A DNA stretch of 64,000 bases, taken from positions 38,541-102,540 of the forward strand of contig JAUHYC010000008.1 of NCBI GenBank assembly GCA_030426685.1. The letters are read 5' to 3'. This DNA is from Alphaproteobacteria bacterium (lineage in GTDB: Bacteria > Pseudomonadota > Alphaproteobacteria > Rhodobacterales > Rhodobacteraceae). This document shows, in pieces, positions 18,850-34,678 of the stretch. Numbering within the stretch: the first letter of the stretch is position 1; the number at the start of each line of letters is the position of its first letter. The notes beneath the pieces were generated by a model. It was not told the DNA's origin. It was given only the letters and a program-made list of their open reading frames with translations, and searched no databases. Position numbers and translations under genes: made by a program.

Positions 18850-18878
18850 AAAAAAAGGGCCAGTCCTGAGACCGGCCC
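18850..18878 (-). terminator. Intrinsic terminator of the LysM/kinase gene cluster
   Basis: Read on the minus strand: a GGGCC/GGCCC stem extended inward by three pairs past one mismatch, a CTGA-type loop, then seven T. It lies 27 bp beyond the stop of the last gene of the minus-strand cluster. Confidence 0.8.
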
Positions 18879-18904
18879 CAAAATTGGTCTGATCGACCGA
18901 GGGA

Positions 18905-20011
18905 TTAGTTGGATGCGGCGTTCAGCTTCTCATTTTGCTCGCGCAGTGTGTCCGAGATAATTGCGTACCATTCGCCGGATTCGCGCATTTCGATCAGGCC
19001 CTTGTTCATCATCGCGATATATTCGCGCGCGAACGGATTGGTGCGATGTGCAAGGAAGCTCATCGAGGACAAAGTAGAGACATACGGGTTTTCAACGATG
19101 TCCGCAGAGGTCAAACCCATGTCTCTCATCGTAGACGCAAACAGATCAACTTCGAATGCCGCAACATCCGCTGTACCAGTGAGTACGGCATCAAGGCACT
19201 CACGAGCCGAGTTGGGCTGAACCACGGTTGTGTTGTCTCGGTTCAGTCCTTGCTCTTCCAGCACTACCATGCTCCAGCCGGCCATACGGCAAATGGTTGA
19301 ACCTTCAAGGTCTGAAAAATCCGTAGCTTTTGCGTATTCGCTTTCAGGCAAAGTAAAGAAGCCGCCGACGATATCGTATACCGGAACGGAAGCAACAAAC
19401 TGCGTGCAACGGGCTTCAGTCTCTGCAGACCACTCATAAGAGCGGTTGGTGCAATCCGGTACGGTCCACGCGATTGAGATATCAAACGCGCCCAGCGGCA
19501 ACAGCGTGTCCAGATGCGAGCTCCAGTCATCTACAAAGCTGACCGAGAAATCGCGGCTGTTACCAGCGCGCTGAAGGCTGGTGGTCGCCAGACGTGTCAT
19601 GATGCCACCGCCGCTCAGCGTTTCCGTTGTAAACGGCTCCCAACCGTTGCCTGCCACCATCTTGATCGGTGGCGCATAGACATTTGAACGTTTGACACTC
19701 GCCGCACGCTTTTCTTCCGCCGCAATCAGTTCCTGTGCGCTCTGGCCGTTGGGCAGGCTGCCATCCTCACAAGGAAGGGCTAGAACCAGGCCAGTTTCAA
19801 GCGAACCGGGGTTGGTGATTGCATTGCGGTTCGCGTTGAAGATCGGCTGATAGTTCGAGGTGCCATAGGCGGCGATGGCGATGGTTGCCAACGTGTCACC
19901 ATCCTGAACGGTATAGTTAGAGCAGGCCTCTTGCGCGGCGGCGGCACCGGCGCTCAGGGCGGTGAAAGCTGATGCCGACAGTACTGCTTTCTTCAGTTTC
20001 TTGTTAATCAT
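18905..20011 (-). CDS. Secreted LysM plus solute-binding-domain protein (short paralogue)
   Basis: Predicted periplasmic protein of 368 residues: signal peptide (cleavage around AGAAAAQEA), one LysM domain (YTVQDGDTLATIAIAAYG to near residue 80), then a family-3 periplasmic-binding-like domain (about 110-360). LysM modules bind peptidoglycan; the second domain normally binds small ligands. The ATG at 20011 follows GGAGG by 8 bp and is preferred to a GTG two codons earlier. It is a paralogue of the gene just upstream but lacks the coiled-coil linker. It is the last gene of the kinase cluster. Best guess: a wall-anchored ligand sensor rather than a transporter component, since no permease is nearby. 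Confidence 0.82.
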   Translation of the reverse strand: MINKKLKKAVLSASAFTALSAGAAAAQEACSNYTVQDGDTLATIAIAAYGTSNYQPIFNANRNAITNPGSLETGLVLALPCEDGSLPNGQSAQELIAAEEKRAASVKRSNVYAPPIKMVAGNGWEPFTTETLSGGGIMTRLATTSLQRAGNSRDFSVSFVDDWSSHLDTLLPLGAFDISIAWTVPDCTNRSYEWSAETEARCTQFVASVPVYDIVGGFFTLPESEYAKATDFSDLEGSTICRMAGWSMVVLEEQGLNRDNTTVVQPNSARECLDAVLTGTADVAAFEVDLFASTMRDMGLTSADIVENPYVSTLSSMSFLAHRTNPFAREYIAMMNKGLIEMRESGEWYAIISDTLREQNEKLNAASN

Positions 20012-20055
20012 GTCCACTTCCTCCAGACTTTTGTTTTGTCAGGCCTTAGGGGGCC

Positions 20056-21318
20056 TTAGCCATTTTCCATTTGATAACGCAGGGCGGTCGACACGATGTC
20101 GCGCCATTCGCCCGATTGCTGCATGATTGCCAGGCCCTGGTTGAGCGTCTCAAGAATCGCTTCCCCATCCGGATTATCCTTGTGGGTCATGACGTTAAGC
20201 GACTTGATTGCTGCCAGATTGGGGTTTTCGACGACCTGATGTTCGTAACCCAGGCGCCCAATGGCCTCGACGGCCAGATGAGCCTCGATCGCGACGATAT
20301 CAGCGGCACCGTTCATGACCGCGTGAAAGCAATCGTCGGGCGAGACCGGGCGCATCAGTTTGATTACAGGTTCATAGAGGCCCACCGCATCCATATGCGA
20401 CAAGGACCATCCTTCTGGTCGGCAGATTGTTGTGCCCACGAAATCCGCATAGGTCAGAGTTTCTTCGTAGCCAGAGCCGCCTTTGGCGAAGAACGTATCC
20501 ACAACTTCGTAGAACGGGTTGGAGAAGTTGTAGGTTTCGCAACGCGTACGGTCGCTTTCGGACAGGGCCTCGGCTTCTTCGCAATTTGGTCGCGACCATG
20601 GGAATGTGGCGTCAAAAGCCAAGGTTGGCATCAACAGGTCCAGATGCGAGGACCAGTCGTTCACGAACTGGATTTTATAAGGCTGCTCGGGCGCAGCGCG
20701 CAGCATCGCGGTCTCGACCAAATCCGTGTAGAGACCGCGGTTTGGCAGCGCCTCATCCGTGAAGGGTGCGTAGTTTCCGCCTGTGATCAGAAGAAGCTGA
20801 CGATCGCGGATTTCCGGGCGTTCGCCACCATCCGCATTGCGGATCAGCGCTGCACCTTCCGCACGCGCGGCTTCGATCTCTTTCTTGGCCTCTGCCTTGG
20901 CTGCAATTACGGCATCTTCGCTGGCCTTCTTCGCTTCGGCTTCGGCGGCGGCCACGCGGGCCTCGGCTTCAGCGATGGCTTTTGCTGCGCGCTCTTCCGC
21001 TGCCTTGACCAGTTCTGATGCCATTTCCGCCGCCATGCGACCGGCTTCGGTGTCTGGTATTGAAGGCGCGCGGCCAACATCTTCAAGACAAGGGAAAGTC
21101 AGTATATCGCCAACTCGAATGACATTGGGGTTCGAACCGATGACATCGCGGTTTGCATCATAGATTAGCCGGTAGTCTTCGGTTGCGTAGACCTCGATGG
21201 CCAGTTCCCGCAGGCTGTCGCCGCGCTGAATCTCGTAGGTCGAACACGCTTCTTGCGCCGAGGCCGCCCCTGTTGCGGCCGTAAGAGCCAGGCTGGAAAT
21301 GATCAGATGGTTTCTCAT
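20056..21318 (-). CDS. Secreted LysM plus solute-binding-domain protein with Ala/Glu/Lys helix
   Basis: Predicted periplasmic protein of 420 residues: signal peptide ending ATGAASAQEA, LysM domain (YEIQRGDSLRELAIEVYA to about residue 75), then a long Ala/Glu/Lys-rich helix (about 85-150, repeats such as AEAEARVAAAEAEAKKA) likely to be a coiled coil. A family-3 binding-like domain follows (about 165-415). The last domain shares motifs with the downstream paralogue (FVNDWSSHLDLLMP versus FVDDWSSHLDTLLP), so they arose by duplication. It lies 23 bp after the PP2C gene in the same direction. Role inferred: wall-bound sensor or spacer feeding the kinase system. Confidence 0.82.
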   Translation of the reverse strand: MRNHLIISSLALTAATGAASAQEACSTYEIQRGDSLRELAIEVYATEDYRLIYDANRDVIGSNPNVIRVGDILTFPCLEDVGRAPSIPDTEAGRMAAEMASELVKAAEERAAKAIAEAEARVAAAEAEAKKASEDAVIAAKAEAKKEIEAARAEGAALIRNADGGERPEIRDRQLLLITGGNYAPFTDEALPNRGLYTDLVETAMLRAAPEQPYKIQFVNDWSSHLDLLMPTLAFDATFPWSRPNCEEAEALSESDRTRCETYNFSNPFYEVVDTFFAKGGSGYEETLTYADFVGTTICRPEGWSLSHMDAVGLYEPVIKLMRPVSPDDCFHAVMNGAADIVAIEAHLAVEAIGRLGYEHQVVENPNLAAIKSLNVMTHKDNPDGEAILETLNQGLAIMQQSGEWRDIVSTALRYQMENG

Positions 21319-21341
21319 GTTGTCCTGTTTCTCTGACTTGT

Positions 21342-22121
21342 TTATGTCTGCGCCGGTTTGACAACGGCGATTGAAATATTGTCCTGATCCGGGTCGGCCT
21401 TGGCATGCAACGCTTGCAAAAGCGCATCCGCTATATCACGGGCCGGCGAGTGTGCATGCGCACCCAGCAGGGCCTTGATCTCGGCATTGCTGAGGTACTG
21501 AAGCCCGTCGCTGCCGAGGATCAGAATATCTGCGGGATTCAGCCCCATGGGCTGTTCGGGACAATCAACTTTGGGGATCGCCGCACCCATGATCACTGAT
21601 GTCAGCTGATTGCGATCGGGGTGGGTCTGCGCCTCTTCTTCGGTGAGCAAGCCCTGCGCCAGTTGCGCGTCGATCTTCGGGGCCATCGAGTGATCCTCGT
21701 TGATCTGGGTCAGGGTTCCACCGCGGAAAAGGTATAACGGACTGTCGCCAATCGAGATCCAGAACAGTTTCTGGTTCATGAACAGGGTGCCCAGCAAGGT
21801 TGAACCAAGCTGAAACCCCGTGGTTTCGCCATGGCTCGCCACTTCGGCATTTGCCTGCATGGCTGCCATGGGCAGGGCGTCGAGCAGAGCACCCTCGGTC
21901 ACGTCAGCGTTGTCGAGCTGCGCGTCCAGCGCATTTTGCCAGGCTGAGATTACCAACTCTGATGCAACCTCGCCCGCATCATGACCGCCCATGCCGTCGG
22001 CCACGACGACATATCCCGCGTTTGCCGAGTCAAAGAACCGTGCGGCAATCGCATCTTCCTGCGTGTCGCGCTGACCCTGGTCCAGGATCAGGGCAATATC
22101 ATATGCTGGGGTCGCCAGCAT
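21342..22121 (-). CDS. PP2C-family Ser/Thr protein phosphatase
   Basis: Cytosolic metal-dependent phosphatase of 259 residues, expected to reverse phosphorylation by the kinase at 23317-25491. The PP2C metal-site motifs are all present: GQRDTQEDA, VVADGMGGHDAGEVAS, ISIGDSPLYLFRGG, ILGSDGLQYLS and a C-terminal DQDNISIAVV. Length equals a bare catalytic domain. Its ATG overlaps the FHA gene stop by one base (TAATG), which indicates translational coupling. Together with FHA and kinase genes it makes the writer-reader-eraser triad known from T6SS clusters, but no T6SS gene is present. Confidence 0.93.
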   Translation of the reverse strand: MLATPAYDIALILDQGQRDTQEDAIAARFFDSANAGYVVVADGMGGHDAGEVASELVISAWQNALDAQLDNADVTEGALLDALPMAAMQANAEVASHGETTGFQLGSTLLGTLFMNQKLFWISIGDSPLYLFRGGTLTQINEDHSMAPKIDAQLAQGLLTEEEAQTHPDRNQLTSVIMGAAIPKVDCPEQPMGLNPADILILGSDGLQYLSNAEIKALLGAHAHSPARDIADALLQALHAKADPDQDNISIAVVKPAQT

Positions 22122-23113
22122 TAATCGGCATCCCGCCAGTCAAAGCCATCATCGCAGAAAGCCGTAAAGCGGATCGAGGTTTCGCTGATGCGAATGAGGT
22201 CACCGCTGGACAAGGCAAGGGTGCTGAGCACGGGCTTTCCGTTCAGGCGCACCAGGTTGGCCTTGCCGCCATGGCCCAGATAACATTTTCGATCTTCGGG
22301 GTCATAGGCGATCACCGCGTGGTTGCTGCGCGAGATACCGGTATCTCCGAAATCCAGCTGAATGGCCTGATCATCATTGCGGCCGATCTGCATCAGACCT
22401 TCGGTCAACGTGATGCAAGCACCACGGCCCGGACCGGATGTCACGACCAGCCAGCCCACTGGGTAGGTCTGCTGGGCGGCCTCGGCCTTGGCGACCGGTT
22501 CAGCGGTTTCCATGAGGTCCTGAACATGCGTGTCGGCGCGTTCGAAGCCAAGGAAAGTGGTCTTCACGCGCGAACGACGATCTTCTGCTGGGGCAGGGGC
22601 CGCCACAGGTTCAGGTGTGTCCTCCACCGGCGTGGGTTCGAGGGTTTCCGTCACCGGAGCAGGCTCGGGTTCTGCAACGATTTCCGGCTCAGCCGGGACT
22701 TCGGCGATCTCTTCTGGTTCGGGTGTGGCGACCTCTTCCGCGACCGATGCCAGCACGTTCTCTTCGACCATCTCAACCGTCTCCTCGACAGTCTGGTGAA
22801 GAGTTACGATCTGGTCGTCATCCTCAGCTGCCTCGGATGCAGCAACTTCTTCTTCTGCGGTCTGCGAAGCTTGGACCTCGGCAGGTTGTTCATTTTCGAA
22901 ATTGGGCATCGAGTCTTCGGGGATCAGTTCGTCGGTATCCTCGTAGCTTTCGGTGGCCATACTGCCACCACCCAGTGCTGCCCGGAGGGCGTTGAAGTCC
23001 GCAATCGGTTCTGGTTTCTCGTCCTGTACGGCTTCGGGTTCAGCGGCGGTTTCTTCTTTCGGCTTGCCGGCACCTTCGAGAAGCCGGCTCAGAGGGCTTT
23101 TGTATTTGAACAT
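22121..23113 (-). CDS. FHA-domain protein with long acidic N-terminus
   Basis: Phosphothreonine-binding reader of 330 residues. Residues about 30-200 are low-complexity and rich in Glu, Pro, Ala and Val, with Thr scattered through. The C-terminal 110 residues form an FHA domain (core LMQIGRNDDQAIQLDF, then GISRSNHAVIAYD). The R-N pair and S-R-S-N-H motif are the phosphopeptide-contacting residues, and both are intact. The N-terminus starts MFKYKSPLSRLLEG and has no signal or membrane segment. It likely docks on the phosphorylated kinase or on phosphorylated cluster proteins. Confidence 0.88.
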   Translation of the reverse strand: MFKYKSPLSRLLEGAGKPKEETAAEPEAVQDEKPEPIADFNALRAALGGGSMATESYEDTDELIPEDSMPNFENEQPAEVQASQTAEEEVAASEAAEDDDQIVTLHQTVEETVEMVEENVLASVAEEVATPEPEEIAEVPAEPEIVAEPEPAPVTETLEPTPVEDTPEPVAAPAPAEDRRSRVKTTFLGFERADTHVQDLMETAEPVAKAEAAQQTYPVGWLVVTSGPGRGACITLTEGLMQIGRNDDQAIQLDFGDTGISRSNHAVIAYDPEDRKCYLGHGGKANLVRLNGKPVLSTLALSSGDLIRISETSIRFTAFCDDGFDWRDAD

Positions 23114-23316
23114 GGTGTCGACACCTTCTTGAATTCTGGCGCGGGGTTCATCCCGCGGGGCTGCTACAAACCACTGCGCAACGCGCGCAGAAGCACCGAT
23201 GAAAGGAAAACAGAGACACTTGTAACTTCGCGACGGGCCGGTTCCCGACGGGGTGGCGGTTTTGGCGCCACCCTCAGCACAAACACACTGGCGATTTTCA
23301 CACGAACCGGATTGAA

Positions 23317-25491
23317 CTACTCCTGCGCAAGCTGCATGACCGCAGCGACTTCACCGCCATTGCGCAGAACATTCAGGCGCGCTTGGGGCTGATTTTCGGA
23401 GACAAGCTGGGCCAGGATGCCATCGAGACTTTCGGGCGTATCCACGGCCGCTCCGGTCTGTGCTTCGTGCAGCAGGATGTCACCGCGCTTTAGACTTCCA
23501 GCCGCTTTCAGGGGAACCTCTGTGACGACGGTCTGCCATCCGGCGTCACCGGCATGGCGCACATCAAATGAATATCCGTTCTGCAGGCCGAACATGCGGT
23601 AGGCGGGCAGGGCCAACAATCCGTTTTTCGCCCGTGTCTGTCCCAGCGGTCGGTAACGGGCAGCCACGCGGACATACCCATCGGGATCGACCGTGAAATC
23701 ATCCAGAACCTGCGCCGCAAGCGAAGCATTGGCCTGGATCGGTTCGCCGTTGAGCGTAAAGATCGTCGCGCCACGCTCGACCCATTCGCCGATCACAGAC
23801 ATATCCTGACCGGCGTCGACACCGTTGATCGCGATGACGTTGCCGGTTGAGCTGCGGCGCTTGGATATGGCGAAGGGAATTTCGATGTCCCAATGGCCAA
23901 ACGCCACCTGATCCTGTACCAGATTCACTGGCTCCGGCGCTACTTCAATTGGTACTGAAACCGGAGCAACAGCAACCTCCTCTTCCACCGTGGCGACAGG
24001 CGCTTCAACGTCTGCAGGTGCATCTGTTACGGCGGCATCTTCCAGCGCTGTTTGCGTCTGCTCGACAGGTTGTTCTTGCGCTGCTTCTGGTTCCGGTGCC
24101 AAAGCGGGTTCGGCCGTTTGCGGCTCTGATGCGGCTTCGGCGGTCTGCTCGACCGGTTCCGGTTCAGCTGTTGCGGGCGCCGGAGCGGCCGGAGCCTGTG
24201 CTGTAACCGGTGTCGCCTCGGGTGACGCTCGATCACCCGACATTACGAAATACCCTCCGGTGGCGAGTGCGGCGACAACCACCACTGCCCCGGCAATCAA
24301 TTTTCCGCTGCCACCCGAGCCGCTTTTCACGATGGTGTCGACAGCTGCGACGCCTTCATCTTGAGGCACAAATTTGGCCAGTTCGTCTTCGGTTTTTTCT
24401 CCGTTACCGAGCGTCAGATCCGAATTTCCAGCCAATAGGGCGGTCACGACCGCTTCGGCGTTTTCGCTTTCGGCCTTGATGCGTTCTTTTTCCGCCTGTT
24501 CGTCCTTGCGGTCCATGCCAACGATGACCGAGACCGGACGATAGGCAAACGTATCGAACATGACACCCGGTCCGCGGAACATGCGCAACCAGTCCAGAGC
24601 TGATTGCAGGCGGTCGGTCGCGTGGACTTCCATCGCCTTGTCGATCGCTTCCAGGAACCCGTCAGGGTAGCCTTTGAAACGACCTGCAAGCGGCGAATAG
24701 GGGTCTTCCTGGCCGTTGTTGAATGCATTCAGACGCGATTGGCCATCGATGGGACGCTCGCCACTGATGGAGTGGTAGAGCGTGGCCGCCAGCACATAGA
24801 GGTCGCTGCTCGGGCCCTGATCAGCGCCACGAACGTAGAATTCATGCGGAGAATATCCATCCTTGATCACGCGCAGCGTCAGCAGGGCAGCTGATTTGTT
24901 TGCGGCCTGTTCCCGCGCCGCGCCAAAATCGATCAGGATCGGTTCGCCATTCTCATCGATCAGAATGTTATCGGGCGAGATATCGCGATGCAGCATTCCA
25001 CTCTGGTGGATAAAGGACACCGCCGACAGCATCTTCTCGGTGACCTGAACGATAAAGTCCGGTCCGCTCTTGTTGTCGGGAGTCTCGACATAATCCAGCA
25101 GATCGCATCCCCGGATCAAATCCATTGCGATATAGGCGGTGTTGTTGTCCTCGAATACCTGATGCACGTCGACGATATTGGGATGTACCAGCCGCGCATG
25201 GTTGCGGGCTTCCTGGATGAACAGGTCAATAATCGCGCGCAGATCGTCCTTGTGATCTGGATTGGCAGGCTCAACCAGATCGCCATTCCGCTGGCAGAGC
25301 GCACCTGGATAGCATTCCTTGATGACAACATCCCGGTCCAGGCTATCGCGTGCGAGATAGGTAATTCCAAAACCGCCGTTGCTCAGAAAGCGGAGGATTT
25401 CATACTGACCGCGCAACAGCTTTGCGCCGGGTTGCAGCCCGTCTATCTGTGGTTCGTCGTGCGCTGTGCCGACAGCCTGGTTGTGACTCAT
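23317..25491 (-). CDS. Transmembrane Ser/Thr protein kinase with PDZ-like periplasmic region
   Basis: Kinase of 724 residues. An N-terminal Hanks-type domain (about 28-305) has a Gly loop at 38-47 (NGGFGITYLA), Lys58, HRD at 168-170, Asn175 and DFG at 188-190, so it should be active. A Glu/Lys-rich juxtamembrane stretch is followed by one membrane helix at about 398-417, a Pro/Ala/Glu linker to about 520, and a 200-residue C-terminal periplasmic part. That part contains stretches resembling PDZ carboxylate loops and helices (for example LKRGDILLHEAQ). The signal would be read outside and phosphorylation done inside. It lies 203 bp upstream of the FHA and PP2C genes. Confidence 0.9.
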   Translation of the reverse strand: MSHNQAVGTAHDEPQIDGLQPGAKLLRGQYEILRFLSNGGFGITYLARDSLDRDVVIKECYPGALCQRNGDLVEPANPDHKDDLRAIIDLFIQEARNHARLVHPNIVDVHQVFEDNNTAYIAMDLIRGCDLLDYVETPDNKSGPDFIVQVTEKMLSAVSFIHQSGMLHRDISPDNILIDENGEPILIDFGAAREQAANKSAALLTLRVIKDGYSPHEFYVRGADQGPSSDLYVLAATLYHSISGERPIDGQSRLNAFNNGQEDPYSPLAGRFKGYPDGFLEAIDKAMEVHATDRLQSALDWLRMFRGPGVMFDTFAYRPVSVIVGMDRKDEQAEKERIKAESENAEAVVTALLAGNSDLTLGNGEKTEDELAKFVPQDEGVAAVDTIVKSGSGGSGKLIAGAVVVVAALATGGYFVMSGDRASPEATPVTAQAPAAPAPATAEPEPVEQTAEAASEPQTAEPALAPEPEAAQEQPVEQTQTALEDAAVTDAPADVEAPVATVEEEVAVAPVSVPIEVAPEPVNLVQDQVAFGHWDIEIPFAISKRRSSTGNVIAINGVDAGQDMSVIGEWVERGATIFTLNGEPIQANASLAAQVLDDFTVDPDGYVRVAARYRPLGQTRAKNGLLALPAYRMFGLQNGYSFDVRHAGDAGWQTVVTEVPLKAAGSLKRGDILLHEAQTGAAVDTPESLDGILAQLVSENQPQARLNVLRNGGEVAAVMQLAQE

Positions 25492-25829
25492 ATCTTCCCG
25501 CCCATATCATTCGTTTTGCGGCACGGATAACAGAGGCATCACCCCGGAAACTCACAACCAAATACAACCGCAGGACACTTGAGACGGTTAGACGTTTCAA
25601 ATTTGACTTTATTGGGGCCGCCTGATGGCTTCACTAAGGATCAAAAATCCAACGGTCGCCTATATTGTGTTATCCTACATCGCCAATACTAAATATGGTA
25701 TAATGCGAGTGAACATCTTGGATTTTATCTCAGAAAAATTACCGGTTGGTCCACGAATTCGAAACAATAATCACCCGATTCTGGCCACGCCGAATCGCTG
25801 CTTGGCAGCTCAATTATAGCGGGAGGGGA
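25492..25829. other. Intergenic gap between dynamin operon and kinase
   Basis: This 338-bp spacer has an AT-rich centre (about 25590-25790). It probably holds the kinase promoter and the end of the upstream dynamin transcript. Short frames here lack ribosome sites and coding character. No strong hairpin was seen, so read-through from the dynamin genes into the kinase is possible. Confidence 0.5.
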
Positions 25830-27119
25830 TCAGGTGCCGGTTCTGGGCGGTGCCGAGGCAACCGTGCTTCCGGCCCAGGCGAGGTTGTCGCTGAGCTGCG
25901 CGAGAATGCTGATTGCATCTTTCAACGGAGCATCTCCGCTTTCGAACTGCAATAACAACAGCAGGTCGGTCGCCTTTTCGAATTCAGCGGGAATCCAGCC
26001 AGCTTCAGGATCGATCTCAGCGCCGGAATCCAGCCGTTCGGCAAAGTCCTCGACGATTTCCTGACAGCTTTGCAGAAAGGCGGCAGGTTCGATCTCAGAG
26101 CTTTCGCGTAGATCATTATAAATGCTCGCTATGGCGGCCAACCAGTCTTCGAGAATGGGATTGTCCAGCGGGGGCAGGGCGGATTCCAGGCTGGCATGTA
26201 CAGCCTTACCACCCGCATCAACATCAGCGACCGGTTCAGGGCCAGAGATTTCTTCCAGATAGGGCAGGAAATCCTGCTCCAGATCTTTGCGTGCGGCTTC
26301 GAGGTCGTGCTGGCGGTGATCAGAGGCCAGGCGCAGGACCTGCTCGGCCAAATTCTGACCACCACAGATTTCCCAAAGCTCAAAATCAGGTTCGGGTTCC
26401 TGCTCCATTGCCTTTACGGCGACCGGAGTTCCGATGGGAACCACAGACCGGAACATGCCGTCTTTCTCCTTGTTCAGGCGTCCCACGACGCGATCCAGCG
26501 CGTCGCGTACGGGCGGCAGATCGGCATGGGTCACAGCTAGCAGGCTGTTATCGCGTAGTTTTTGTGGCACCTTTGACCACAAATGACGCTCGGTCTCGCG
26601 CCAGGCATTTGTCCCGTTGGTGCACCAGATTGCGCAGTCCACATAATCCAGCAACTCCAGCGTCTGCTTATATGTGTCATCCAGAGCCCCTGCGCCGGGC
26701 AGATCGAACAATGAGATTTCCTGCAGGGCAGGGGTATTCAGCCCGACCGAAATGAAATCGGGGTTGTCCGCAGCCGCTTTTTCCAACGCGATGCCAGAAT
26801 AGACCTTGGGTTCCTTGTTCCACCAGCCAACGGTAGTTTCCGGCGCTTCTGCATAGGCCACGATAACCAGCGGCAGCTTAAGGTGCTGCGGCCCGGTGGG
26901 CAGGATATCAGCACCCGCCAGCATGTTTGCGAGGCTGGATTTACCTGCGCCAAACTCCCCGGCAAACCCGATCGACACCGCATTCGAAAGCCGCTCGGCA
27001 TGGGCCAGCGCGCGCGTGCGCAACTCTTCCAGCTCAGCCGAGGGGGCTTCTTTTTCGGTGGCGGTCAAAAAGCGCTCCAACTGGCGCACTTCTTGCTCGG
27101 TTCCGGGGAATTCAATCAT
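25830..27119 (-). CDS. Dynamin-like GTPase A (short type)
   Basis: Bacterial dynamin-superfamily GTPase of 429 residues. P-loop GEFGAGKS at 54-61, G3 DLPG at 139-142 and G4-like T-H-A-D at 197-200. Between G3 and G4 is the motif CTNGTNAWRETE, shared almost exactly with the GTPase at 30571-32253, so the two are paralogues. The C-terminal half is helical and acidic. Its ATG overlaps the stop of the B-type GTPase gene (ATGA), strong evidence that A and B are made together, as in two-component dynamin pairs of other bacteria. Likely role: membrane tethering or remodelling with B. Confidence 0.85.
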   Translation of the reverse strand: MIEFPGTEQEVRQLERFLTATEKEAPSAELEELRTRALAHAERLSNAVSIGFAGEFGAGKSSLANMLAGADILPTGPQHLKLPLVIVAYAEAPETTVGWWNKEPKVYSGIALEKAAADNPDFISVGLNTPALQEISLFDLPGAGALDDTYKQTLELLDYVDCAIWCTNGTNAWRETERHLWSKVPQKLRDNSLLAVTHADLPPVRDALDRVVGRLNKEKDGMFRSVVPIGTPVAVKAMEQEPEPDFELWEICGGQNLAEQVLRLASDHRQHDLEAARKDLEQDFLPYLEEISGPEPVADVDAGGKAVHASLESALPPLDNPILEDWLAAIASIYNDLRESSEIEPAAFLQSCQEIVEDFAERLDSGAEIDPEAGWIPAEFEKATDLLLLLQFESGDAPLKDAISILAQLSDNLAWAGSTVASAPPRTGT

Positions 27120-29155
27120 TCTGCAGCCTCTGCCTGTCGAGTGTCTAATGGTGTCATGCCGTCGACTGATCCCAGCTCATCCGCGATGCGGCGGGCCTGA
27201 TCGACGGCGCGCTGCGCTTCTGCACGTGCGTTGGTCCCGTCCCCCGCACGATGTTCAAGATGCCCGGCCAGCAGCGCCAAATAGTGATCCAGAACGGTCT
27301 GCAACCTTTCTGTCAGATCACCGCGGGCGGTGTCTACAAGATCGTCGCCGATCATCTCAAATTCCTGCACGATCATCTTTTCCGCGCGGTTCAGTACGCT
27401 GCGGCGCGAGATCAGACGCGATAGCCAGGTCACGCGCAGTTCGACCGTGATACCACGGGTCAGCGCAGTTGTGTCCGGGCGGAACCAGCGTACGGCGCTG
27501 GTGTTCATCCGATTGTCTACCGGTTCCTGCCAGCCGGGCAGGGCGCGCAGGGCGGCGTTGCTCTGCATGTCGATGGCATAAAGTTCACTCAACATCCGCT
27601 GGCGTACGACTTGCGTTGCGCCCTGCACAAGCTCACGCATCCGTTCACGCAGAGGGGTGAAGTTCAGTTCAGTATCGCCGTCCTTGGCCAAAAGCGGCGA
27701 GTTCCCGTCCGGTCCGCGCACTACGATCGAGACCGCTTCGGCCACGGTGTCATCCATCACGCCGCGTAGATTGGCCAACACGTTGTCCATGTCGTCGGTG
27801 ATGGCTTCGGTTTTCTCTGCAATCAAAGCGCGCAGGTCAGCCAGAGTCTTATTGTTTTCATCCACGTCAGCAGTGTCAGGCCCATCCTGTTCTTCTATTG
27901 CGCGCAGACGGGCGGAGCTGCGTTCAAGCTCGCCCTGTGCAAAGCTGTTGAGATGCTGCCACGCCATGTTCAGTTGTTCCTGACGCGGACCTTCGGTCAG
28001 TGCTTTGGTAACGTGACGGCGCAAATCCGGCAGACCCGAAGCAATCATCGCGGCAAAACGCAACACGCCTTCACGGCTGATCGGGCCGGGGCCTTGCTTG
28101 ATCTCTTCAACACCGGCCAGATACTGCTTCATCTGTTCAGGGTGGGCGCGTAGCCAGGCTAAGATCTCATCGTGGTCGATGCCCGTCTCATCGCCGGTCA
28201 GCGCATAATGCGCCCATTGAGCGCTGCCCATCAGTACATCGATGTCCGAGTTCCCCAGAGCCTGTTCCAGCCCACCCAATACATCAGCGCGCACTTTGGA
28301 CGCATCCTCGGCACCACCACCCAGCTCATCCACACGATTGATGAACACCACGATCTGCCCCAGTTCCAACGCCTGCATCAGACGGAACAGCTTTAGATCG
28401 GCACGCGAAAGAGCCTGATGGGCGGACAAGACGACCACAAAGAAATCAGATTGCTTGAGGTACTGGCGCGAGATTTCTTCGCGGATCAGCAACGGGTCAT
28501 TCACCCCAGGCGTATCGGTAACAGTCACCGGATACGGGAAATGACCGATGTCGAAATAGACCTCTGCCTTGCGGGTGATATCACTGTAAAGACCCCGGTC
28601 TGATCCGGGGTCGTATTGGCCTTCATCGGTCGGGTCATCGCCGGCACAGACATAGCGGGCAAGATCGTCCGATGTCAGCTCATCCAGATCGTGGTGCTGG
28701 CCCAGCAGATGTTTGTAGCTTTCACCCAAGCGCAGTTTGGCGCGGGTCTTCATCGCCTCGACCTGCTCTTCGATCATCTCGCGCTTATAGCTGTCCTCTT
28801 CATCCGGGAACATATTGCGCAGTTCTTCGCCCTCGGCGATCAGGGCTTGCCACTGGCGGTTGTCGAAGAAGTGAAATTCGGCACCCGACGTCCGGCCTGA
28901 GGGATGGCCGAAATGCATGTCGGTGATCACAGTCGTCCAGGGGTTCACGTCTGAGGGCAAATACTCTGCCTGACCAGTGAAGCCATTGATCAGGCGGGAT
29001 TTCCCAGCTTTGATCTGTCCTACGAAGGCGATTGAAGGTTTGAGGTTCGACAGGTTGTCAATGATCCTCGAGATAAACTGACGTGTTTCGTCATTGCTCA
29101 TCCCGTTCATGTCTTCTGCGATGCGAATAAGCTCGCGGCGGTTCAGTTCACTCAT
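27116..29155 (-). CDS. Dynamin-like GTPase B (long type)
   Basis: Dynamin-family GTPase of 679 residues. P-loop GQIKAGKS at 46-53, SDVNPWT at 68-74 (switch I region), DTPGVND at 214-220 and NRVDE at 273-277. A long helical stalk follows, then a hydrophobic, basic segment near residue 590 (ELRVTWLSRLISRR) that may be the membrane-contacting paddle. Shared motifs with the gene at 32262-34262 (SDVNPWT, RYVC-GD, DTPGVND, GSAQWA) identify it as a paralogue. It is coupled to A by a 4-bp overlap. Confidence 0.88.
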   Translation of the reverse strand: MSELNRRELIRIAEDMNGMSNDETRQFISRIIDNLSNLKPSIAFVGQIKAGKSRLINGFTGQAEYLPSDVNPWTTVITDMHFGHPSGRTSGAEFHFFDNRQWQALIAEGEELRNMFPDEEDSYKREMIEEQVEAMKTRAKLRLGESYKHLLGQHHDLDELTSDDLARYVCAGDDPTDEGQYDPGSDRGLYSDITRKAEVYFDIGHFPYPVTVTDTPGVNDPLLIREEISRQYLKQSDFFVVVLSAHQALSRADLKLFRLMQALELGQIVVFINRVDELGGGAEDASKVRADVLGGLEQALGNSDIDVLMGSAQWAHYALTGDETGIDHDEILAWLRAHPEQMKQYLAGVEEIKQGPGPISREGVLRFAAMIASGLPDLRRHVTKALTEGPRQEQLNMAWQHLNSFAQGELERSSARLRAIEEQDGPDTADVDENNKTLADLRALIAEKTEAITDDMDNVLANLRGVMDDTVAEAVSIVVRGPDGNSPLLAKDGDTELNFTPLRERMRELVQGATQVVRQRMLSELYAIDMQSNAALRALPGWQEPVDNRMNTSAVRWFRPDTTALTRGITVELRVTWLSRLISRRSVLNRAEKMIVQEFEMIGDDLVDTARGDLTERLQTVLDHYLALLAGHLEHRAGDGTNARAEAQRAVDQARRIADELGSVDGMTPLDTRQAEAAE

Positions 29156-29225
29156 AAGATATACCCTGGTAACTCGTATTTTAGATTTTACTTCACAAAA
29201 TGGATACTATTAGGCGGGAACGCGG

Positions 29226-30107
29226 TCATTCGACGGCGCTTTTCAAGGCTTTCCAAAGGTTGACGACGGCGCCCAGCTTGCGGGCATCATGGACGGCGGC
29301 GGCGGTTTTTTGTCCGTCGCTCAGTATTGCGAGACCGGCCCCCTGACCGGCAGATGGGCGCATGACAATCAATTGCGGGTGCGACAGTGTATCGGAACTA
29401 TCGGCCTGCCAGCCGGTCAGATCGCGGGCGAAGCGGGTCAGCAGGTCCTGATCGGGGTGCGCCGTCTGATCGGGCGCGCAGATGCCATCGAAATCCGGTT
29501 CATCCGTGGCTCCGCCAATCAGCATCCGACCCAGCGCAAACCGGTCAGCACCCTCATAGAACCGGTCAGCTATACCAGAAGGGTCTGGCTTAGCGATTTC
29601 AACTGATGGCTGATCGGATTGCACTGGCTCTGGTTCGGTTGGCTGATCCGGTACGATCGACATGCGCGGTTCTTCCGCCAAAACGATCTCGGCGCAGGCG
29701 GCTTTGACCTCAGAGAACGTGATGCCGACGTCATCAGCCTCCAACGTCGTGTCGGGGCGCAGCGAAACCAATTCCAAAGGACCTGGGGCGGTTGAGATGT
29801 CAGATACCAGTTGCGCCAACCGCTCGATCAGATCCTCGCGCGCTTCGGTCTCAAAGTCCGGAACTGCGCCCGAGGCGCAGCGGAACACGTCGGTTACCCG
29901 CGAGCTATTGACCTCAATCGCCAGCACCGCGCCATCGGCGGCGGTGAATTCCAGCCTGCGGGGCAGGATGGTGCCGCGGATTGCCTCCAGAACCTTGCCC
30001 CGGCGGGATTGCGCGGTGTCGCCTGACAAACGGATTGCGGGTGACAACCGGGCAGTCGAAGAGCGCCCGATTTCTTCGAGCATATCCAGTATTTCGCTAT
30101 CCATCAT
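29226..30107 (-). CDS. Unknown protein in the dynamin cluster
   Basis: Soluble protein of 293 residues with no signal or membrane segment. It has an N-terminal acidic helical part (MMDSEILDMLEEIG), a beta-rich middle containing LPRRLEFTAADGAVLAIEV, a Pro/Glu-rich linker (about 150-175), and a C-terminal domain ending LIVMRPSAGQGAGLAILSDG then a helix. I do not recognise the family. It sits 23 bp after the roadblock-like gene and 70 bp before dynamin B in the same direction, so it is very likely part of the same operon and a candidate adaptor. Confidence 0.7.
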   Translation of the reverse strand: MMDSEILDMLEEIGRSSTARLSPAIRLSGDTAQSRRGKVLEAIRGTILPRRLEFTAADGAVLAIEVNSSRVTDVFRCASGAVPDFETEAREDLIERLAQLVSDISTAPGPLELVSLRPDTTLEADDVGITFSEVKAACAEIVLAEEPRMSIVPDQPTEPEPVQSDQPSVEIAKPDPSGIADRFYEGADRFALGRMLIGGATDEPDFDGICAPDQTAHPDQDLLTRFARDLTGWQADSSDTLSHPQLIVMRPSAGQGAGLAILSDGQKTAAAVHDARKLGAVVNLWKALKSAVE

Positions 30108-30130
30108 GCCGTGACCCCCTCTGGTCCCGT

Positions 30131-30532
30131 CTAAACCGCAGCCGCCACCGGCCCGAGGCTGAGATGTGATTTTGTAAGTGCAAGACCGACATTCGCGCTG
30201 TCACGACAGAGGTAGCACACCACATGATCAGGATATTCCCGCGTCCTGAGAAAGATGTGCAGCCGATCGTTCGAAAACACCGCGATTTCCCCGAATCCCG
30301 GATGTTCCGCATCGTCTATGTCGGCTGAGCGCAGCAGATCTTCGAACCCTTTGACGCCGCGCCCCTGAAACAAGTTTGCTACTGCAAGCGCGAGATTTTC
30401 CAACGCGTCGGCATTGTCCTGATCAGACGCGTCAACGCCCAGAAGCATCCCGGTTTCCATATCGACATACCCGGCCGCAATGCAGTCGGGTATTGTCTCG
30501 ATGGCCGAGGTCAAAGCGGATTCAATGGACAT
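30131..30532 (-). CDS. Small roadblock/LC7-like protein
   Basis: Cytosolic protein of 133 residues. The pattern IPDCIAAGYVDMETGMLLGVD, helix, FGEIAVFSNDRLHIFLR, then YLCRDSANVGLALTKSH resembles the roadblock/longin fold, whose bacterial members (MglB type) regulate small GTPases. The fold call is from pattern, not a search. Its place among four GTPase genes fits a GTPase-regulator or scaffold role. It lies 38 bp after dynamin A' and 23 bp before the unknown 293-residue gene. Confidence 0.7.
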   Translation of the reverse strand: MSIESALTSAIETIPDCIAAGYVDMETGMLLGVDASDQDNADALENLALAVANLFQGRGVKGFEDLLRSADIDDAEHPGFGEIAVFSNDRLHIFLRTREYPDHVVCYLCRDSANVGLALTKSHLSLGPVAAAV

Positions 30533-30570
30533 CTAACCGCCTGCCTTTGATGTCGAAAGCCGGGGTTGGA

Positions 30571-32253
30571 TTAGATCGCATGCCACTCCGCTCCGCCGCT
30601 TTCACTGGTTTTTGGAACCGCACGCAACGGTTCTTTGTCTTTGCGGGCGTTATGTTCCAGCGCGATCTGGTCGAACTCCGTCAGGAAGGCCGCAAAGGCG
30701 CTTTGCAGGCCCTTAGCGTCATCCGGCAGGGTCTCTTTGGCAACGATTTCGCTCCACATCGCTGATGCACTCAATGGTGTGGTTTCCGGTGCGTTCGACA
30801 CGTTGTCCACGCCAGGGGCAGGGTGTTCGTCCCCGGCAGCACCGTCGTCGTCGGCATGTGCTTTACTGGACATCGACACGACCCGGTCTGGCGTCAACGC
30901 GTTCGACTCCGGTTCTGGTTCGTAGTCGTCATCGGCAGTTTCCGCCTGTTCGGACAGCAACGCTGTGATTGACGAAACTGATACTTCGAGGTCCGAGGCG
31001 GCATCGGTTGCTTCCGAGGGTTGTCCTTCTTTCGCTTCTACTTCGGCAAGTTCTGTGGAAACTTCGAGGTCAGACTTCTCATCCTCCGGGCCCAGAACAA
31101 TCAGTTCTACCTCGTCCTCATCCTCATCCATCTCTTCGTCATCGGCCAGGAAGTCGAATTCATCCACATCCGTGGTCGGGTTTGCAAGAAGATTGAGATC
31201 AAGCGGATCGTCATCCTGATCGGCAAACAGCGCGCGCAGGTCTTCATCGGCGGGTTCTGCCTCGGCCTCCATTTGGGCTCGTAGCCGTTCAGCTTCATCA
31301 GAATCGATCCGGGCGCGCTCAGTATCTTCGGTGCGACGCTCCACGCGAGCAGGCCGGACGGGGAAGCTGGTAATCACGTCTCCCTCGGCTTGCTGATCTA
31401 TCGGCTCGACCAGTTTTAGCGGTGCGTCCCCGGTCCGCTTTTCAGGACGAAGGGGTTGCACCTTGGGGGTGTCTGACAGGGACTTGTCGATCTGGTACCG
31501 GGCCAGCTGATCCGCGCGGTTGTCCATGACCTGTTCAGTGATCTCCAGGAAGCTGTCGACCATCTTACCACCACCGCTGCGCGACCAAAGCTCGGCATCA
31601 CCGGTTTTGTCGCGTGCCAGAATGGCATCCCGGGCCGAGAACAGGATCGTACGGTTGAACAGGTGACCCGCCTCGCGGTTGACGCGGCGCAGTACCTTTT
31701 GCCGGTCCTTCGGCCCGAGGGCATCGGCGCGGGTGATCAACAACAGAGACTTGTGCTGCAACCGCTCGGGCAATGACACCCAGGTCGCACGTTCGGTTTC
31801 GCGCCATGCCTGCGTGGAATGCGTACACCACAGAACGCCATTGGCCTGACCAACAGCGCGTTGCCAGACATCGGTTGAAATCTTGGGGTCCGAAATACCG
31901 GGCGTGTCGATTAGATCAACAGCTTCAAGAATATCCGCCTCAAGGAAAATGCGAATGAACTGAGCGTCGTTGACACCGACCTGGTCAAGCTGGTCCAGTT
32001 CAATGTTCTGCGTGCTGCCATCATGGCGCTTGAAATAAGCCGGTCGGTTGCCCCAGCTGAACCAGACAGGTGGCAGCTGAGTCGCCGTGACCTGCGTCGG
32101 CAAGGCTTGCTTGCGCAACAGAAAGTTCATGAGCGTCGATTTACCGGCGCTGAATTCCCCCATAAGCGCAAACACGGGTTTGCGGCGGGACCACTGCTCG
32201 ATGCGGTTCCAGGCCTTGGGAGAGACGAAGCGGGTTTCTGTATTTTTTACCAT
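30571..32253 (-). CDS. Dynamin-like GTPase A' with long acidic tail
   Basis: GTPase of 560 residues, paralogue of A at 25830. P-loop GEFSAGKS at 32-39, DTPG at 116-119, the shared STQAWRETE motif near 146-154 and G4 T-R-A-D at 174-177. The G domain ends near 250. The remaining 300 residues are a highly acidic low-complexity region (for example DDEEMDEDEDEVE) rich in Ser and Thr, with a helical patch near 500-540. The tail is absent in A. It could be a disordered linker or a substrate for the cluster kinase (inference). It lies 8 bp after dynamin B'. Confidence 0.85.
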   Translation of the reverse strand: MVKNTETRFVSPKAWNRIEQWSRRKPVFALMGEFSAGKSTLMNFLLRKQALPTQVTATQLPPVWFSWGNRPAYFKRHDGSTQNIELDQLDQVGVNDAQFIRIFLEADILEAVDLIDTPGISDPKISTDVWQRAVGQANGVLWCTHSTQAWRETERATWVSLPERLQHKSLLLITRADALGPKDRQKVLRRVNREAGHLFNRTILFSARDAILARDKTGDAELWSRSGGGKMVDSFLEITEQVMDNRADQLARYQIDKSLSDTPKVQPLRPEKRTGDAPLKLVEPIDQQAEGDVITSFPVRPARVERRTEDTERARIDSDEAERLRAQMEAEAEPADEDLRALFADQDDDPLDLNLLANPTTDVDEFDFLADDEEMDEDEDEVELIVLGPEDEKSDLEVSTELAEVEAKEGQPSEATDAASDLEVSVSSITALLSEQAETADDDYEPEPESNALTPDRVVSMSSKAHADDDGAAGDEHPAPGVDNVSNAPETTPLSASAMWSEIVAKETLPDDAKGLQSAFAAFLTEFDQIALEHNARKDKEPLRAVPKTSESGGAEWHAI

Positions 32254-32261
32254 AACTCTTC

Positions 32262-34262
32262 TTATGCTGCTTCGTTACTGAGGTCTTTCAGGATGTCACC
32301 CAGAATATCGTCGCGCGACTTCTGCGGCTTCTGTTCGGCGATCTGTGCCGCGGCCCTGTCCGGTGACTGCGAAATGCTGAGCAGTGTGTCTTTCTGCTCG
32401 GTCATGAAGTCGGCCAAGGTGGCGCGGACATTTTCCAGAACGGCTGCGATCTGGTTCTCCTCGATATCCTTGGTGATCGAGTTCGCCTCAGACGCGATCA
32501 GTCGTGTGTAGTCGGCGGCATAGGCTTCGAACCCTTTGCGACGTTGCCACCAACGGCGCCACCATGTGCTTTGCAGGTCCAGCGCGATTGTGCGACCGAT
32601 CCCCAATGGTGGCGGGACGCGTGGCACGATTGGGGCTTCGATGCTGAATTCGCCCAGGTGGTTTCCCAGCAATTTTTGATACAGCGCTTCAACATCCGCA
32701 GCGGCTGCGGAATAAAGCACACCGGCATCTTTGCGCATGGACCGGGCAAAGCTGAAATAGGCTGCTTTCTGCAAGGTGCGCAGGCCTGCAGGGTCATACT
32801 GCCACGTCCCCTGCTCACCATTCTTCTCAAGATGAGAAATCAGGGAATCTGTGGCGCGTTTGACAAAATTCGCTTCGGCCGACGCCAGCCGCTCCAGTAC
32901 TTTGTCGCGAAGCTTTGTGGTCAGTTCAGCGGCTTTCTTTTCGTATTCACTGGAAACAGTTGCGACGGCCTGTTCCGGCGATACACCATCCAGTTCACGA
33001 ACAATTCCATCGGTATTCGACAATGTCTTTGCTACCGAGGTGGCCCTGATTTGGCTGGCGATGTTGCGCGCCCGATGGCGCACCCGATCCAGCAGACGGG
33101 TTCCGGCACCTTCAGCGATGCGTTCATTCATGGCCAGCAACAGATCAGGCAACCCCGAAAGCGCCCAGATTTTGTCCAGCGAAGCCGCCTGATCACCGAA
33201 ACCGGCAGCCAGGTAGAAGGTATTCAGCGCCTCACGCGATTCCTCGGTCAGTATGTCAGGATTGCCGGTCAACGCAGCTTCGGCCCACTGGGCACTACCG
33301 AAAACAACGCTGGTGTTGGTATCAATGTTGTTCTGCTTCAGCGTGTCCTGAATCCGATCTCGGATCTCCGGGACTTGGTTGACCGGATCAGACAGTTCAT
33401 CGATGCGGTTTACAAACAAAATGATCTGACGGTTCTCGAATTGGGCAATGATCCGCATCAGTGCCATGTCCATCGTGGTCAATGCCTGGCTTGCAGCAAG
33501 GACGACGATGCACACTTCCGAACCCCGCAGACTGCGCAGCGTAATCTGCTCGCGCACCATGAAGGTATCGTTGACACCAGGGGTATCGCAGAGTTTCAGC
33601 GAGATCGGATATTGCGGGATATCCATGTACAGCTCGGCTGATTTTGTCACATCGGCAAAGCGACCGGTCTTGGGATTTATGTCGGGGTCATCCTCGTCCC
33701 CAAGGCAGACGTAACGCTGGATCAGTTCATCGTCAAAATAGTCATATTGATGACTTTGCCCCAGAATCAGGTCGAAATGTTTGCCCAGCCGCTCTTCGGA
33801 TTTGGCTTTCATTTCTTCGATCTGGCGGCGAATGTCGTCCATCTCATCATCGGCTCCGGCACGATTGGCCAGCTCTCCCAAGCGGCCCCCGCCGACCATC
33901 AAATTGTCCCATTCTTCTTGCTCGAAGAAGGTGAATTTGGACCGAGTATCACCTTCGGTCCGAGTATTGATGTTCAATGTCGTGACGACCGAGGTCCACG
34001 GGTTTACATCCGAGGGCAGCAGGTTTGGCCGCCCCGCCAGAATATTTACGATCGAGGATTTGCCCGCCTTCACCTGCCCGACAAGTGTGACGCTTGCGGT
34101 GAAATTCTCCATCTTGGTTTTCAGCGCAGCCAACCGCGCCGAGGAGCGCGCATCCGCCACCTCTGTCAATTGGTCTATCTGAGTCGTCAACGAGGTCATT
34201 GCCTCTGTCATCTCGGACAGGGCCTCGTTTCCAACAGACAGAAGGTGGTCGTTACGCGCCAT
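32262..34262 (-). CDS. Dynamin-like GTPase B' (long type)
   Basis: GTPase of 666 residues, paralogue of B at 27116. P-loop GQVKAGKS at 62-69, SDVNPWT at 84-90, DTPGVND at 226-232 and NRIDE at 285-289. A helical stalk follows, with a hydrophobic/basic segment (DLQSTWWRRWWQRRKGF) near residue 570 that looks well suited to membrane insertion. The end is a basic, charged tail. It starts 2 bp after the small 137-residue gene and runs into A' 8 bp later. Confidence 0.88.
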   Translation of the reverse strand: MARNDHLLSVGNEALSEMTEAMTSLTTQIDQLTEVADARSSARLAALKTKMENFTASVTLVGQVKAGKSSIVNILAGRPNLLPSDVNPWTSVVTTLNINTRTEGDTRSKFTFFEQEEWDNLMVGGGRLGELANRAGADDEMDDIRRQIEEMKAKSEERLGKHFDLILGQSHQYDYFDDELIQRYVCLGDEDDPDINPKTGRFADVTKSAELYMDIPQYPISLKLCDTPGVNDTFMVREQITLRSLRGSEVCIVVLAASQALTTMDMALMRIIAQFENRQIILFVNRIDELSDPVNQVPEIRDRIQDTLKQNNIDTNTSVVFGSAQWAEAALTGNPDILTEESREALNTFYLAAGFGDQAASLDKIWALSGLPDLLLAMNERIAEGAGTRLLDRVRHRARNIASQIRATSVAKTLSNTDGIVRELDGVSPEQAVATVSSEYEKKAAELTTKLRDKVLERLASAEANFVKRATDSLISHLEKNGEQGTWQYDPAGLRTLQKAAYFSFARSMRKDAGVLYSAAAADVEALYQKLLGNHLGEFSIEAPIVPRVPPPLGIGRTIALDLQSTWWRRWWQRRKGFEAYAADYTRLIASEANSITKDIEENQIAAVLENVRATLADFMTEQKDTLLSISQSPDRAAAQIAEQKPQKSRDDILGDILKDLSNEAA

Positions 34263-34264
34263 GG

Positions 34265-34678
34265 TCAGCCTCCGGTACCAGTTGCGGCGATTTGGCCCCC
34301 TGCCCCGTCAGGCAGACCCGCCAACGTGTCGATGCGAGAGATCAGGTCCAGCGCATTCCCGAGGATCGCAGCCTCGGTTCGCGGGGAAATCGATTCGTAG
34401 GCAAGGGAATCAGCCAGAACCTCGATCGAACTAAAGCCCTCTCCGTTCTCAAGGCACGCAACACGGCGCCCGGTCGGAAAATCCTGAGATTTATGTGCGG
34501 GGAGCGGCATGCGAGCGTTGGCCAGCAGGTATCGGTTACCCGAATGAGTTCGGAGAGCGATACCAAAACCCGTGCCAGGATGCTGGCGATTCAGGGTTTT
34601 CAGCTCACCGATGAAGTTTTCACGTGCAAGATCAACGACGTCTTGCTCCGAGGCAGCGGATTTGATCTGGTTGGTCAC
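34265..34678 (-). CDS. Small unknown protein, first gene of the dynamin operon
   Basis: Protein of 137 residues without signal or membrane segment. The central part (TGFGIALRTHSGNRYLLANARM) is beta-rich, followed by a C-terminal helix and a Gly-rich tail. I do not recognise the family; a distant roadblock-like or other alpha/beta small fold is possible but unsupported. It immediately precedes dynamin B' with a 2-bp gap, so a partner role for B' is the natural reading. The operon promoter should lie just upstream, at about 34690-34850. Confidence 0.65.
   Translation of the reverse strand: MTNQIKSAASEQDVVDLARENFIGELKTLNRQHPGTGFGIALRTHSGNRYLLANARMPLPAHKSQDFPTGRRVACLENGEGFSSIEVLADSLAYESISPRTEAAILGNALDLISRIDTLAGLPDGAGGQIAATGTGG

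Follow-up and report, generated by a model that had tools for sequence, protein, structure and literature searches.

The window analysed here is a stretch of 64,000 nucleotides from an alphaproteobacterial genome (assembly GCA_030426685.1, contig JAUHYC010000008.1, positions 38,541 to 102,540). It carries a cluster of genes in which a Ser/Thr kinase (STK), a phosphothreonine reader (FHA) and a phosphatase (PP2C) are encoded beside four dynamin-like GTPases and a roadblock protein. The closest named relatives are Ruegeria, with the DynA2 of R. conchae at 95%. We propose, with a probability of about 0.55, that these proteins form a phosphothreonine switch that gates membrane remodelling by the dynamins. 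The parts are known and their assembly is new, and the module is real, conserved and independent of the type VI secretion system (T6SS). Bacterial dynamins are widespread, and little is known of the signals that switch them on. In marine bacteria, Ruegeria and Yoonia among them, the gene order conserved across 18 sampled genera points to a complete candidate circuit for their control, and Thr185 of the FHA protein, with its equivalents, provides one exact testable residue.

The gene content, order and linkage of the module are established by comparison across the order. We searched 149 of its genomes with DynA2, SBP1, STK and PP2C, retrieved the stretches around DynA wherever a genome matched, and mapped the genes in them with profiles. 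DynA was present in 60 of the 149 genomes, representing 26 genera, and shares a locus with a kinase, FHA or PP2C gene (the triad) in 55 of these 60 genomes and 22 of the 26 genera, which is linkage far beyond chance. All three triad genes lie in a DynA locus in 54 genomes. The exact one-strand order STK-FHA-PP2C-DynB2-DynA-DynB1-roadblock-UNK was found in 42 of the 60 DynA genomes and in 18 genera. The same order occurs in 91 of 161 mapped loci, a set in which some regions are counted twice (once in the genome sample and once in the scan of named records), so we take 42 of 60 as the figure; the motif and transmembrane (TM) counts given below use this mapped set, with its duplicates. Short duplicates (L001-L009) were removed before counting, and loci L066-L069 and L163-L169 stand outside the 60-genome count. 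An earlier note on this DNA, made from the letters alone, had taken kinase, reader, phosphatase and dynamins to be one linked system, and this is borne out; its expectation that the kinase and dynamin genes travel together holds for the 55 genomes and for 67 of 84 DynA genes, and breaks down for the rest, which are taken up below.

Presence and absence of the genes follow the same pattern. The co-occurrence table for DynA and the module-like kinase (E < 1e-60) reads 55/5/5/84, with p 8e-29 in a test that ignores kinship. Genome G013 was entered in it as lacking the kinase, which is split at contig ends there (best E 5.8e-39); its locus (L035) nonetheless contains triad genes. Neighbouring genes are tightly packed, with median gaps, counted from longest-ORF (open reading frame) starts, of -74 between FHA and PP2C, -1 between PP2C and DynB2 (119 mapped pairs) and -4 between DynA and DynB1. 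Among the 80 named loci of a second collection, the core order recurs in Yoonia, Loktanella, Litoreibacter, Jannaschia, Marivita, Actibacterium, Tateyamaria and others. Searches of the class (240 genomes) and of the phylum (249), both with members of DynA's own family among them, gave no match to the DynA profile outside that family; at most four candidates were scored per genome, so this absence is provisional. In a quick tree DynA clusters largely by genus; the row of the window has a very long branch, which leaves its own place unsure. In Leisingera aquaemixtae R2C4 the eight-gene core is annotated on a 33-kb linear plasmid record (L171, NZ_CP041163.1:8893-17917), with the gene at the DynB2 position annotated as hypothetical.

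The three proteins of the presumed switch appear intact. In the window they match Pkinase (1.1e-27), FHA (2.4e-7) and PP2C_2 (5.9e-14) in Pfam, all above cut-off. Among the mapped kinases, HRD is retained in 126 of 127 and DFG in all 127; the binding residues of the FHA domain (GR, S..H, N) are intact in 133 of 133 proteins, and the metal residues of PP2C are kept in 137 to 141 of 141. In the FHA protein, an N-terminal part of poor conservation precedes an RxKTRxxGF motif, after which comes the FHA domain. Thr185 of this motif is invariant (133/133), and the full motif is found in 127 of the 133 FHA proteins and in none of the other module families. OdhI and GarA are phosphorylated on a threonine near the FHA domain. 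Compared with solved structures, the FHA protein had no match at 1e-3, and the kinase domain scored best with PpkA (5.7e-42, against 4.1e-24 for PknB), a ranking by scores and not by a tree. Long and short forms of the kinase differ in that a TM-like segment after residue 300 occurs in every one of the 90 long kinases and in 5 of the 37 short ones; the C-terminal part of the window's STK is predicted to be periplasmic.

On the output side, the GTPase motifs of DynA and DynB1 are likewise established. The ordered G1-G3-G4 set is found in 164 of 165 mapped DynA and 147 of 153 DynB1 sequences. DynB2 keeps its P-loop in 124 of 142 cases and the ordered set with DxPG in just 12 of 142, so that it looks like a pseudo-GTPase in most genera. 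Against solved structures, the DynA profile scored best with the Campylobacter tethering pair (5owv, 4e-18), and with BDLP at 1.1e-12. The AlphaFold model of DynA2 predicts a dynamin/BDLP fold with a helical stalk and aligns with the Cj-DLP pair (5oxf/5owv; DLP, dynamin-like protein), SynDLP, BDLP and IniA. Of the 165 DynA proteins, 111 carry a tryptophan-rich, basic WWxxWWxR motif in their C-terminal half, which is a candidate membrane contact.

The remaining two core proteins, RB2 and UNK, gave nothing usable against solved structures by sequence alone. The AlphaFold model of RB2 (predicted local distance difference test, pLDDT, 85.4) matched roadblock, MglB, MglC and LAMTOR structures with a Foldseek probability of 1.00, and the identity of RB2 as a roadblock/LC7 protein, as previously suggested, is thus settled by predicted fold and not by sequence. 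Its homologues are called 'Roadblock/LC7 domain protein' in some sources. Of the four families of last genes of about 250 amino acids, hhalign linked UNK directly to three (probability 91.8-98.1), and to the fourth through the others only. RB1 was considered as a further roadblock relative and rejected, since hhalign gave no link to roadblock families or RB2 above probability 30.

The cluster of the window is a rearranged and enlarged version of a module of the Rhodobacter-Roseobacter family. Two blocks travel across the order, STK-FHA-PP2C-DynB2 and DynA-DynB1-roadblock-UNK; in the window they stand in swapped order (DynA1-DynB1-RB2-UNK, then DynB2 with STK-FHA-PP2C), with RB1, DynA2 and two solute-binding proteins (SBPs) added. 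In its common form the module encodes a single DynA, a single small GTPase (DynB1) and a GTPase-like DynB2 that has usually lost DxPG. The earlier note had divided the cluster at its 338-bp gap into a kinase half and a dynamin half, and had placed four dynamins and wall-binding sensors in the core. Neither view survives the comparison: the arrangement of the blocks elsewhere makes the boundary at the gap a local one, and the SBPs are a lineage-specific addition outside the core. On Leisingera scaffolds (L122-L124), STK-SBP-SBP-FHA-PP2C-DynB2 adjoins DynA-DynB1-RB-UNK on the opposite strand, and in Defluviimonas and Albidovulum (L107, L129, L114) three SBPs lie between STK and FHA.

Several other arrangements were observed. 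DynA-DynB-DynA-DynB tandems without a kinase occur in L017, L022, L033, L040 and L157, preceded by a small gene, c17, whose product is roadblock-like by eye only. Genome G057 has STK-FHA-(PP2C)-DynB2-RB-UNK sets without DynA (L163, L164) and DynA-DynB pairs elsewhere (L015, L016). DynB2 of the Rhodobacter/Tabrizicola type is about 800 amino acids long, and the copy in L135 has a long proline/glutamate-rich insert.

Within the window, the 12 minus-strand ORFs at 18905-34678 were confirmed with the content that had been listed for them (Table 1), as were the gap and the gene overlaps. Dynamin_N was found in all four large GTPases above cut-off (9.9e-10 to 3.8e-14), while RB1, RB2 and UNK matched no Pfam or NCBIfam family. 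DynA1 is the window dynamin most similar to the DynA of other genera. Among the mapped loci, RB1 is confined to the window's genus and one further genome (G072, L014). The gene order of the window is shared by all nine sampled genomes of its genus, the window included, with a third SBP in one of them (G076, L012). The same 12 genes in order also occur on plasmid unnamed3 (512 kb) of Ruegeria sp. SCSIO 43209 (NZ_CP065362.1), flanked as in the window by a TetR gene and isocitrate dehydrogenase. In the nine Ruegeria genomes the distance between DynB2 and STK varies from 263 to 341 bp, and a block of about 80 bases (about 25550-25631 in the window) is conserved in 9/9, making it a candidate second promoter or control region. 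A hairpin with a T-run after SBP2 probably marks the end of the operon; the terminator scan as a whole proves little, as it gave 24 terminator-like sites against 16.1 +/- 4.3 expected, and the promoter scan was uninformative (5 found, 7.5 expected).

Table 1. Features of the cluster, in window coordinates, with example loci of sensor-like neighbours elsewhere
Feature	Position	Strand	Description
RB1	34265..34678	-	137 aa, first gene of cluster
DynA1	32262..34262	-	long dynamin-like GTPase, Dynamin_N 2.7e-12; WWxxWWxR in C-terminal half
DynB1	30571..32253	-	partner dynamin-type GTPase, Dynamin_N 9.9e-10; acidic C-terminal tail
RB2	30131..30532	-	roadblock/LC7 fold by predicted model
UNK	29226..30107	-	related to conserved last module gene of other genera
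DynA2	27116..29155	-	second long dynamin-like GTPase, Dynamin_N 3.8e-14; extra copy of window's genus
DynB2	25830..27119	-	short dynamin-type GTPase, Dynamin_N 5.7e-10; DLPG kept
Intergenic stretch	25492..25829		338 bp, between DynB2 and STK
STK	23317..25491	-	Ser/Thr kinase, Pkinase 1.1e-27; kinase domain ~24-300; TM-like segment 398-416
FHA	22121..23113	-	phosphothreonine reader, FHA 2.4e-7; Thr185 at nt 22559-22561
PP2C	21342..22121	-	Stp1/PstP-type phosphatase; metal-binding residues
SBP1	20056..21318	-	LysM-like N-terminus and solute-binding domain; signal peptide by eye only
SBP2	18905..20017	-	SBP1 paralogue (phmmer); LysM 8e-3, under cut-off
Terminator-like hairpin with T-run	18856..18879	-	directly after SBP2
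PBP/OmpA and PilJ neighbours (example loci)	L019:14417-16111, L038:3422-4663

The genes around the module suggest a fixed output with changeable sensors, given the variety of these neighbours (SBPs, PBP with OmpA, PilJ, PAS). LysM-SBPs are linked to it in three of seven long-kinase genera and in none of 15 short-kinase genera (p 0.023, from few genera). Compared with solved structures, SBP1 matched designed proteins only (E 0.02-0.04). A PBP-like protein with OmpA (six loci) and PilJ-domain proteins (four loci) adjoin the module or its kinase part. In three genomes, a PAS protein carrying NCRFMQ, which we take to be the LOV signature, follows kinase-free DynA-DynB-c17 sets (L020:13402-13944, L039:6024-6566, L062:13239-13838), and a light input to these dynamins is possible from its sequence.

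These parts can be arranged into a mechanism. It may start, in the lineage of the window, with LysM/solute-binding proteins anchored in the wall; these would sense a ligand or a change in the wall and then influence the part of the kinase predicted to be periplasmic. STK would then phosphorylate the FHA protein, most likely at Thr185, in the manner of PknG acting on OdhI/GarA, and phosphorylation would free or capture the FHA domain, such that the dynamins are recruited or released. RB2 may be a GTPase regulator or a scaffold for the dynamins, and DynB2, usually encoded beside the phosphatase, may be an adaptor between switch and machine, with PP2C resetting the switch. Such a system would most likely serve to tether or repair the inner membrane when the envelope is under stress. 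A wider claim, to which we give a little short of even odds, is that this is the first of its kind: a dynamin machine in which a complete threonine-phosphorylation cycle of kinase, FHA and PP2C switches assembly, with tuning by a roadblock protein and, in most genera, by a pseudo-GTPase adaptor, and with interchangeable inputs. Those inputs would comprise binding proteins attached to the wall through LysM or OmpA, sensors of the PilJ type, a kinase in the cytosol and the LOV-like protein beside kinase-free pairs. In open-access PMC text, we found neither this combination nor a phosphothreonine cycle with a roadblock protein wired to dynamins described.

A number of observations weigh against the phosphothreonine switch. 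That the proteins are phosphorylated and touch one another, which way control runs and what the system does in the cell are all inferred from sequence and models, and the invariance of Thr185 could be structural. Seventeen of the 84 DynA genes lie away from any triad gene, and five of the 60 genomes (G019, G057, G063, G088, G094) hold only such copies, which means that the dynamins can do without the triad. Conversely, a module-like kinase (E < 1e-60) occurs without a DynA match in five of the 149 genomes (G008, G009, G060, G133, G142), and Rhodobacter/Tabrizicola-type loci (L133, L134, L135, L137, L138, L141, L143, L146) read FHA-PP2C-DynB2-DynA-DynB1-RB-UNK, with the kinase absent from the fetched stretch. 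The DynB2 of the window retains DLPG, unlike most of its mapped relatives, and the idea of a pseudo-GTPase therefore does not fit it unchanged; that it is akin to the DynB2 of other genera is read from a profile ranking, not a tree. The DynA2 model is of modest confidence (pLDDT 78.4; predicted template modelling score, pTM, 0.66). As for the input, both SBP genes of the earlier note are present, but SBP_bac_3 in SBP1 (8e-4) and LysM in SBP2 (8e-3) fall under the curated cut-offs, which weakens the solute-binding and LysM names. Four of the seven long-kinase genera have no linked SBP, and no TM-like segment was seen in 32 of the 37 short kinases, so the envelope sensing that had been proposed is probable in the window's lineage and not general.

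Other explanations of the cluster have to be set against these points. The genes may be neighbours by regulatory convenience, the kinase, FHA protein and phosphatase acting on unrelated targets; the DynA genes without a triad and, in Ruegeria, the gap with its conserved block between DynB2 and STK are consistent with this. We consider it unlikely, as the PP2C-DynB2 junction is so tight (median gap -1), the order is constant across 18 genera, and even where the Leisingera blocks lie on opposite strands they are still adjacent. A role in cell shape, division or polarity, with an MglB-like roadblock protein and the kinase cycle placing dynamins at the division site or pole, would fit the resemblance of the predicted RB2 fold to MglB and MglC, and Streptomyces DynA and DynB act in cell division (PMC6104087). 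It is nonetheless unlikely: family scans found no gene for the Ras-like MglA in the module, no Pfam family occurs in more than three of 89 flank proteins, and a DynA2 match is absent from 89 of the 149 relatives, which must also divide.

Defence against phages was raised as a possibility in the earlier note; the kinase would then be the sensor of infection, and the dynamins would serve to reseal or destroy the membrane. The module is indeed patchily distributed (60 of 149 genomes), and in PADLOC its dynamins weakly match LeoA/LeoBC (1.8e-10 to 1e-3) and its kinase the PD-T4-6 and MADS kinases, but such matches are to be expected from many dynamins or Ser/Thr kinases. The gene neighbourhood lends it no support, as the 89 flank proteins from 18 genera yielded at most nine matches to five PADLOC families (mad3 three, mad8 two, AriA two, PbeA one and one), and their commonest Pfam families are P450, LysR, ABC and response regulators, with metabolic and regulatory functions dominating. 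The clustering of DynA largely by genus in the quick tree also argues against this role, no DynA1 relatives were found in 50,697 phage records, and all 18 plasmid records with copies of the module were typed as non-mobilizable. We therefore regard a defence function as quite improbable.

The phosphothreonine switch that we favour has likenesses among known systems. LeoABC also groups several dynamin-like genes and is not known to have a kinase, FHA, PP2C or roadblock partner. In the T6SS, the threonine-phosphorylation pathway PpkA-Fha-PppA (PMC3953482 and PMC5995506) likewise unites kinase, FHA and PP2C, and among solved kinases the kinase domain of STK scores nearest to PpkA. T6SS regulation was rejected for the window, in agreement with what had been noted, as its own genome (95.9% complete) gave no VipB/TssC sheath match while the E. 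coli control was positive. A T6SS was found in 20 of the 60 DynA genomes and 20 of the 89 others, in same-contig cases at least 55 kb from DynA, and in one of the nine sampled genomes of the window's genus, on another contig. Conservons (PMC13343842) resemble the module in that a single operon encodes a membrane kinase, an MglB-type roadblock protein, a GTPase and a protein whose function is unknown; they differ in having a histidine kinase-like sensor and a small Ras-like GTPase, where the module has a Ser/Thr kinase (Pkinase) and dynamins.

The T6SS had been named as the main parallel for the writer, reader and eraser, and it now shares that place with the GlnH/GlnX/PknG/OdhI system of Corynebacterium, in which a periplasmic binding protein signals to a Ser/Thr kinase and on to an FHA protein (PMC9769921). 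The output of GlnH-GlnX-PknG-OdhI/GarA in that account is 2-oxoglutarate dehydrogenase, whereas the linked candidates here are dynamins, and the FHA protein of the window scores 22.3 bits against an OdhI family cut-off of 200. Most bacterial DLPs are encoded as pairs in operons, and the paper on the Campylobacter pair puts forward, as speculation, a part in membrane repair and in envelope stress (PMC6104087). Cj-DLP1/DLP2 and other paired bacterial DLPs are, like those of the module, adjoining unequal dynamin-like genes with GTP-binding motifs; they differ in that the passages of PMC6104087 consulted name no kinase, FHA, PP2C or roadblock genes for the Campylobacter pair, and in the text of that paper 'kinase' and 'phosphorylation' occur 0 times. 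With GlnH-GlnX-PknG-OdhI as the nearest precedent for the input and the Campylobacter pair as the nearest for the output, the proposed mechanism combines the two. By analogy, and tentatively, since we would put it just under an even chance, a dynamin machine switched by a full threonine-phosphorylation cycle may be a bacterial counterpart of the receptor-kinase control of dynamins.

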